Shown here: one piece after another, positions 6,788-12,484 of the stretch
Position numbering within the stretch: position 1 is the first letter of the stretch
How the letters are laid out: every line of letters begins with the position of its first letter
Origin: a bacterium
GTDB taxonomy: Archaea > Thermoproteota > Nitrososphaeria > Nitrososphaerales > Gagatemarchaeaceae
DNA: 32,187 nucleotides
Assembly: GCA_027310575.1 (NCBI GenBank)
Contig: DAIDAO010000009.1
Location: 1 to 32,187, forward strand
Reading direction: 5' to 3'
Made by a program: the position numbers and the translations under genes
The notes under the pieces: generated by a model
Seen by the model: only the letters and a program-made list of their open reading frames with translations
What the model was told of the DNA's origin: nothing
Database searches by the model: none

Positions 6788-6803
6788 AATAAAGTAAATA
6801 TCC
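6788..6803. promoter_or_regulatory. A/T-rich box shared by dphB (-) and tRNA-Lys (+)
   Basis: The stretch AATAAAGTAAATATCC is the only A/T-rich patch between the two divergent genes. It lies 26-41 bases before the tRNA 5' end at 6829 and a similar distance from the TTG start of dphB at 6761. Confidence 0.4.
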
Positions 6804-6828: not shown

Positions 6829-6938
6829 GGGCCTGTGGCTCAGTGCGGAACAACCGCGAGAAGCCAGGTTAGAGAGATAGGTCCTAGATCGGCTGGCTCT
6901 TAACCAGCATGCCGTGGGTTCGAATCCCACCAGGCCCG
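6829..6938 (+). tRNA. tRNA-Lys(CTT) with an interrupted D-arm, probably intron-containing
   Basis: The acceptor stem GGGCCTG (6829-6835) pairs perfectly with CAGGCCC (6931-6937), with discriminator G at 6938 and no encoded CCA. The anticodon arm is GCTGG (6892-6896), loop CTCTTAA with anticodon CTT at 6899-6901, and CCAGC (6904-6908). The T arm is GTGGG, TTCGAAT, CCCAC. The gene is 110 bases, about 35 too long, and all the excess lies between D-stem GCTC (6838-6841) and the anticodon stem. Removing 6849-6868 (20 bases) and 6875-6889 (15 bases) restores a perfect D-arm, GCTC AGTGCGGTTA GAGC, and a 75-base tRNA. A single 29-base intron at 6861-6889 is an alternative: it has a 4-bp AGCC/GGCT helix at the right place for a splicing motif but leaves a 16-base D-loop. 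Confidence 0.85.
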
Positions 6939-11584: not shown

Positions 11585-12484
11585 TCAGTTCGGTGAGCGC
11601 GGCCGGGGTCGTCCTGCCTCGCGGGGCCCTTCGGTCCCGCCCTTTAGCGCGATTCTATCCGGCCGGGTGTAGATGTTCAGGCGCGAGCCTCTCGCGAACC
11701 CTATCAGCGTCACTCCGGTCTTCTCGGCGGCATAGATCCCCGAGTAGATCACGCTGGTGTTGGAGACGACGATGGGCACCCCGACCCTCGCCAGCTTCAG
11801 GACCATGTCTGCGGGCTGCCTGCCAGTAGAGATGCCCACGCACCTGGAGAAGTCGGCCCCGGCCATGGCGGCTTGGCCGACCGCCTTGTCGACCGCGTTG
11901 TGCCTCCCCACGTCTTCACCGTGACCGACGGCCCTGCCTTCCTCGAATATGGTCGCGCTGTGGACCCCGCCCGTGGCCTTCCAGGCGCTGTTGCCCCTCC
12001 CGAACTCCCCGAGCATCTTCGCTATGTCGTCGAGGCTCACTCTGTACTCCGAGGCCACGCTGGGCCTGTCGACCCTGTCGAGGAGGCGCACGAACTCGGG
12101 GTTCCAGAGCCCGCAGGCGGTCGTTATCACCTTGTAGACGCTCGCAGCCGCGACCCTCGCCGAAGGGTCGAAGGACAGGCGGACCCTCGCCCTGGCGCCG
12201 TCGACCTTCAGGTCCTCGATCTCTTTCAGGCTGGTGATTATGCCTTCGTCGAGCAGGTAGCCCGCCACGTGCTCCTGCCTCATCGTCGGGGACGAAAACA
12301 CGGTCGCTGCCAGCTCTCCGTTGAGCACGATGTCCAGCGGACCTTCGACAGCCACCATCTCCGAATCCTCCCTGGCCGACCGGGCGCCGATGTCGACCTT
12401 GGTGACGGACACCTCCTTGGTGGAGCCCCACTCGCCCTGAGGCTCCTCGCCTCCGAGCCCAGCTGTCTTGGGGGTATGCTCCAA
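11585..12484 (-). CDS. fdhD: FdhD-like sulfurtransferase for molybdoenzyme maturation
   Basis: FdhD carries sulfur from a desulfurase to the molybdenum cofactor of formate dehydrogenase and possibly related enzymes. Family motifs seen are NGELAATVFSSPTMRQEHVAGYLLDEGII, ATGGVHSATIF, GEDVGRHNAVDKAVG, the phosphate-binding-like STGRQPADMVLKLARVGVP and GVTLIGFARGSRLNIYT. The loop that usually carries two cysteines in a CxxC pattern reads TTACGLWNPE, so only C124 remains and the second position is tryptophan. No formate dehydrogenase was seen here, but a DMSO-reductase-family molybdoenzyme lies downstream at 26114-28837 and could be the client. TTG at 12484 follows the AbrB-PhoU stop by 16 bases, so the two are probably one operon. 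A GTG near 12409 is an alternative start. Confidence 0.88.
   Translation of the reverse strand: MEHTPKTAGLGGEEPQGEWGSTKEVSVTKVDIGARSAREDSEMVAVEGPLDIVLNGELAATVFSSPTMRQEHVAGYLLDEGIITSLKEIEDLKVDGARARVRLSFDPSARVAAASVYKVITTACGLWNPEFVRLLDRVDRPSVASEYRVSLDDIAKMLGEFGRGNSAWKATGGVHSATIFEEGRAVGHGEDVGRHNAVDKAVGQAAMAGADFSRCVGISTGRQPADMVLKLARVGVPIVVSNTSVIYSGIYAAEKTGVTLIGFARGSRLNIYTRPDRIALKGGTEGPREAGRPRPRSPN

Follow-up and report, generated by a model that had tools for sequence, protein, structure and literature searches.

We describe a tRNA-Lys(CTT) gene that very probably (about 0.93) is functional, is present as a single copy and carries two short protein-spliced introns within its D-arm, at the non-canonical sites 15/16 and 24/25; the cut sites and the enzyme are predicted from sequence. 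The gene lies in the window, the stretch of 32,187 nt analysed here, which is contig C43 of a 1.58-Mb MAG (G000; 61 contigs, 97% complete, 4.35% contamination). The relatives used for comparison are MAGs of the Nitrososphaerota (Thaumarchaeota). With this gene, an uncultured nitrososphaerotal genus joins the few archaea known to have heavily interrupted tRNA genes.

Structure of the tRNA-Lys(CTT) gene

The gene comprises tRNA positions 1–73, the CCA end not being encoded. Its first part reads GGGCCTG TG GCTC AG[20]CCAGGTTA GAG[15]C G and the remainder GCTGG CTCTTAA CCAGC ATGCC GTGGGTTCGAATCCCAC CAGGCCC G, the figures in brackets giving the lengths of the inserts. As the initial annotation had observed, the acceptor (7/7), anticodon (5/5) and T (5/5) stems are fully paired, and 35 surplus bases are confined to the D-arm. 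We assign 20 of them to the D-loop (6844–6863) and 15 to the 3′ strand of the D-stem (6875–6889).

Removal of both segments yields a 75-nt tRNA with 3 mismatches in 75 positions to an intron-free orthologue (locus L037, see below), which bears out the proposed deletion of 20 and 15 bases. In this spliced form ARAGORN finds a perfect cloverleaf with a CTT anticodon, which identifies the gene as tRNA-Lys(CTT). As in archaeal tRNA introns generally, the inserts are missing in some orthologues and their exact excision restores the tRNA. Over the first 30 nt the fit leaves a single mismatch, whereas 300 shuffles of the 48-nt interval gave 2 mismatches at best and typically 5–6; since none of the 300 matched the observed value, the fit of the D-arm is not a product of chance.

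The window sequence alone allows intron 1 to start at 6842, 6843 or 6844 with an identical mature RNA. We placed it at 15/16 because the copy of this intron in genome G009 ends with T, not G. For intron 2, 24/25 is the only position that restores the D-stem strand GAGC. Exon 3 lacks the intron at 37/38, and all exons lie in order inside 110 nt, unlike those of split or permuted tRNA genes. Both predictors applied to the unspliced gene misplaced it, ARAGORN to 6862–6937 with a broken acceptor stem and Rfam to 6880–6938 with 31.6 bits. That both set the 5′ end inside an intron is a warning for the annotation of such genes.

Table 1 Features of the tRNA-Lys(CTT) locus in the window.
Feature	Position	Strand	Description
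pre-tRNA-Lys(CTT)	6829–6938	+	110 nt; sequence and structure; nine further genomes with the same D-loop intron
Exon 1	6829–6843	+	tRNA positions 1–15; aligned to intron-free orthologue L037
Intron 1	6844–6863	+	20 nt; TGCGGAACAACCGCGAGAAG; site 15/16
Exon 2	6864–6874	+	CCAGGTTAGAG; tRNA positions 16–24
Intron 2	6875–6889	+	15 nt; AGATAGGTCCTAGAT; site 24/25; central helix TTAG/CTAG
Exon 3	6890–6938	+	tRNA positions 25–73; anticodon CTT at 6899–6901
Likely TATA element (GTAAATATCC)	6794–6803	+	~25–35 nt upstream of the gene; putative promoter

Intron content of the orthologues

The reference orthologue L037 belongs to another family of the same order (genome G027). It reads GGGCCTGTGGCTCAGCCAGGTCAGAGCGGCTGGCTCTTAACCAGC..., contains no insert and scores 69.3 bits with Rfam; G029 likewise has an intron-free gene. 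The D-loop intron occurs alone in G025. Ten genomes (G001, G002, G003, G010, G011, G012, G019, G021, G023, G024) combine the D-stem intron with one at 37/38 and sometimes another in the T-arm, and seven (G004, G006, G008, G014, G016, G017, G022) have the 37/38 and T-arm introns only. Both D-arm introns are found in the window genome, G013, G174, G009 and G116, and together with a 37/38 intron in G005, G015, G106, G109 and G130. None of the Lys-CTT genes seen in the genus and order carries more than three introns. One gene with zero, one, two or three introns at four sites, within a genus and its order, makes gain, loss and splice-site shifts traceable. In many members of the genus (L103, L106, L119 and others), the T-arm intron lies near 53/54 and contains a GGCG...CGCC hairpin.

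Of 400 genomes of the order, 10 show the specific pattern of the 15/16 motif; nine of them, counting the window genome, belong to this genus and the tenth to a different genus of the family. Across these ten loci the exons are nearly identical, and the introns differ in length (16–24 nt for intron 1) and sequence. A TTTAA or TAAATA element ~25–35 nt upstream is present in 10 of 10, and in ten of the loci retrieved together with it the same oxidoreductase gene follows directly downstream.

Alternative explanations

The initial annotation had also weighed a single longer intron of 29 nt with a 4-bp helix, at the price of an unusual mature D-loop, and the D-arm can indeed form several short helices. 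However, a single excision never rebuilds the 4-bp D-stem, the best one of 35 nt leaves 8 mismatches to L037, and the invariant exon CCAGGTTA separates the inserts in every relative that has both. Moreover, relatives carry either insert without the other, as expected for two introns, which together with the agreement of the exons with intron-free orthologues and the bulge-helix-bulge-like motifs at both junctions supports the two-intron proposal; we consider a single intron very improbable. It is even less probable that the inserts are retained in a tRNA with an expanded D-arm. Intron 1 does fold into a stable hairpin on the D-stem, but in such an RNA the D-stem would be broken, with C25 separated from G24, and the inserts vary freely in length, intron 1 from 16 to 24 nt and intron 2 from 13 to 19 nt, and are missing in some orthologues.

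The gene might instead be a decaying tRNA or pseudogene with random insertions in the D-arm, Lys AAG codons being read by tRNA-Lys(TTT). The poor scores from standard predictors would fit this, as would the tRNA-Lys(TTT) gene of the same genome, yet that gene bears the same 15/16 intron itself. Against decay also stand exons of identical or almost identical sequence throughout this genus and in a second one, compensatory changes within intron 1, and the conserved TATA-like element and gene neighbourhood. Another intact tRNA-Lys(CTT), which the initial annotation had named as a sign of a dead copy, was searched for in the genome, and none was found; two weaker DNA matches are the T-arms of two Arg tRNAs. 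A pseudogene is about as improbable as a single intron. An assembly error or chimera, conceivable in a MAG of such fragmentation and contamination, is scarcely credible, because nine other genomes, the single-contig G005 among them, share the D-loop and D-stem structure, and the intron letters differ in all but two of the nine. We thus retain the reading of a functional gene with two D-arm introns.

Predicted splicing motif of intron 1

Neither of the two introns forms the strict bulge-helix-bulge (BHB) motif with a 4-bp central helix, two 3-nt bulges and two further helices, and they are therefore filed under relaxed BHB motifs (hBH/HBh′ or BHL, conserved in orthologues). BHB modelling, as suggested in the initial annotation, gave a relaxed form for both introns and a strict one for neither.

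For intron 1, exon bases C11-U12-C13 would pair with a GAG of the intron (C11-G, U12-A, C13-G) below an inner hairpin GCGG/CCGC, with possible outer pairs U8-A and G9-C17. The bulges A14 G15^U and A G^C16, with the predicted cuts at ^, would flank this central helix, which has three Watson-Crick pairs plus a G10-A mismatch or, alternatively, 3 bp with the cut at the bulge edge. The nine distinct intron 1 sequences all retain GAGAA and the inner hairpin. Among these, the hairpin covaries, with 97.7% of cells paired and three pairs changed on both sides; the covariation value is 0.194 versus 0.083 after shuffling (reached in 0 of 500), and shifting the partner by 1–3 columns abolishes it. No covariation can be expected of the outer and central pairs, which are invariant, since their exon side does not change.

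Energetically, the BHB form of intron 1 is not the optimum. In the window genome, a fold with a 3x3 internal loop is locally better by ~6 kcal/mol, and under the nearest-neighbour model the internal-loop fold UGGCU/AGCCA wins by 5–6 kcal/mol in 8 of 10 sequences. Neither G009 nor the tRNA-Lys(TTT) of the window genome keeps this rival fold intact. We read the bulge form as the probable substrate of the endonuclease, though the loop fold is modelled as lower in energy.

Predicted splicing motif and register of intron 2

In intron 2, exon bases U20-U20a-A21-G22 would pair with CUAG of the intron, with the bulges A23 G24^A and A U^C25. This central helix (TTAG/CTAG) is paired 4/4 in five of the genus members with the 24/25 register (G000, G013, G005, G106, G109), and in three other families the D-stem intron has a central helix of GTAG with CTAT or CTGC, again 4/4. 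The inner helix is short and weak, an outer helix is lacking and the energy is near zero. No exon base is common to the two motifs, so the introns could leave in either order.

The D-stem intron fits the motif poorly in G015 and G009. In G116, G002, G012, G010 and G003 it fits 22/23 with a central helix of GGTT with GACC, GACT or GGCT; for G012 a 4/4 pairing is likewise available at 24/25, though the inner helix is missing there. Loci for a direct comparison of the 22/23 and 24/25 registers are L119, L170 and L112 versus window positions 6875–6889. Both registers place AG in the 5′ bulge, within the exon sequence AGAG, which points to a motif that slid along this tetranucleotide. Alternatively, the introns at 22/23 and 24/25 may have been gained independently.

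Splicing enzymes

The window genome encodes the catalytic (alpha) subunit of the tRNA endonuclease, a protein of 184 aa with the domains PF01974 and PF02778 and the catalytic Y, H and K kept. Its best match is PDB 3p1z (E 5e-44), which we take to be the endonuclease of Aeropyrum pernix, and its Lys39 aligns to chain residue 44 of that structure. K44 of A. pernix lies within a Crenarchaea-specific loop that confers broad substrate specificity (PMC6379350). A second subunit with a PF01974 domain is full length in five relatives; in the window genome it is represented by its 44-aa carboxy end, which runs off the start of contig C49 (L161, 2–136, +). The His of the catalytic subunit was not seen at the matching place in the second subunit, which suggests a structural beta subunit. 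The genome also contains a gene for RtcB. It thus holds an endonuclease predicted to cut relaxed motifs and a ligase, with the beta subunit present only as the 44-aa fragment.

An (alpha-beta)2 tRNA endonuclease has been reported for Thaumarchaeota (PMC4090602), and the alpha subunit and its putative beta-like partner fit such an enzyme. Both introns would be cut by this heterotetramer, with its relaxed-specificity loop, and RtcB would then join the exons to a normal 75-nt tRNA. With two relaxed motifs side by side in a single arm, the gene offers a direct test of the (alpha-beta)2 endonuclease.

Comparison with known systems

It is well documented that a tRNA gene can carry as many as three introns and that Thaumarchaeota have non-canonical ones (PMC4033280, PMC8450103, PMC3218864, PMC3293823); our search of the literature on thaumarchaeal D-arm introns returned reviews and surveys only. 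Multi-intron tRNA genes are known from Thermoproteales (Pyrobaculum, Thermofilum; Sugahara et al. 2007, 2008, as related in PMC4090602 and PMC4033280). According to these accounts, the likeness extends to short BHB-spliced introns (11–129 nt in Thermoproteales) at non-canonical sites, up to three per gene, in several tRNA genes, and to an (alpha-beta)2 endonuclease. In contrast, the window gene belongs to a different phylum and has two introns in one D-arm without the canonical one at 37/38. The example sites given in PMC4090602 (20/21, 22/23, 25/26, 29/30, 30/31, 45/46, 53/54, 56/57, 59/60 "etc.") do not name 15/16 and 24/25, but this list is open.

A survey of Thaumarchaeota, the same phylum, with tRNAscan-SE 2.0 listed 107 non-canonical introns and multi-intron genes (PMC8450103); the genus studied here is probably outside the complete genomes covered there. 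Some intron pairs in that survey are so close that the next motif forms only after removal of the first, unlike the motifs of the window gene, which would force no order. In Caldiarchaeum (Aigarchaeota), 13 of 45 tRNAs contain introns, some of them in the D-arm, and the three genes with several are Leu(UAA), one written Glu(CUG), and Thr(GGU), unlike the Lys(CTT) gene here (PMC3293823). The split tRNA-Lys(CUU) of Nanoarchaeum and Staphylothermus (PMC4090602) is a disrupted gene of the same isotype with BHB processing, but there two genes are joined in trans at 30/31, whereas the window gene is continuous with D-arm introns.

Other interrupted tRNA genes

Of 30 tRNA matches in the window genome, over half look interrupted on inspection by eye. 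Its tRNA-Lys(TTT) (L030; contig C56, ~11763–11831, −) has a 15/16 D-loop intron (TTCCAGAATTGGAGAGAAC) and another in the variable loop, and its standard CM score is under the cut-off. In the complete relative G005, seven tRNA genes show the 15/16 motif (Lys-CTT, Lys-TTT, Asn, Arg, Gly and two Pro), counting only matches in over-long genes that restore the D-loop; in a tRNA-Glu a 15/16 intron is probable by eye. Apart from Lys-CTT, these are the loci L211, L213, L214, L215, L216, L217 and L219, with 15/16 introns in Arg, Asn, Pro (two), Gly, Lys-TTT and probably Glu. Matches of the motif to intact Leu and Ile tRNAs in an automatic scan were rejected as false (3–4% in shuffles).

Archaeal tRNA genes with several non-canonical introns are a known kind; the interruption of 15/16 in at least seven tRNA genes of G005, and a D-stem intron that fits 24/25 in some species but 22/23 in others, are less ordinary. 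Our proposal, to which we give slightly less than even odds, is that in this genus 15/16 is a hotspot common to many tRNAs and that the D-stem intron switches register between 22/23 and 24/25 among close relatives, the motif sliding by 2 bases over AGAG, whose tandem AG units would serve equally well as bulges, and leaving the mature tRNA unchanged. If true, this sliding would be a mechanism by which tRNA introns move between neighbouring sites.

Two further genes on the single contig (C1) of G005 stood out. A tRNA-Val with a GAC anticodon reading (L223; ~826,350–826,800) has three introns of ~16, 15 and 17 nt by eye. The other tRNA gene spans 173 nt, is probably Trp(CCA) (L218; 880,000–880,450) and contains very long inserts, which perhaps include an intron of the box C/D type.
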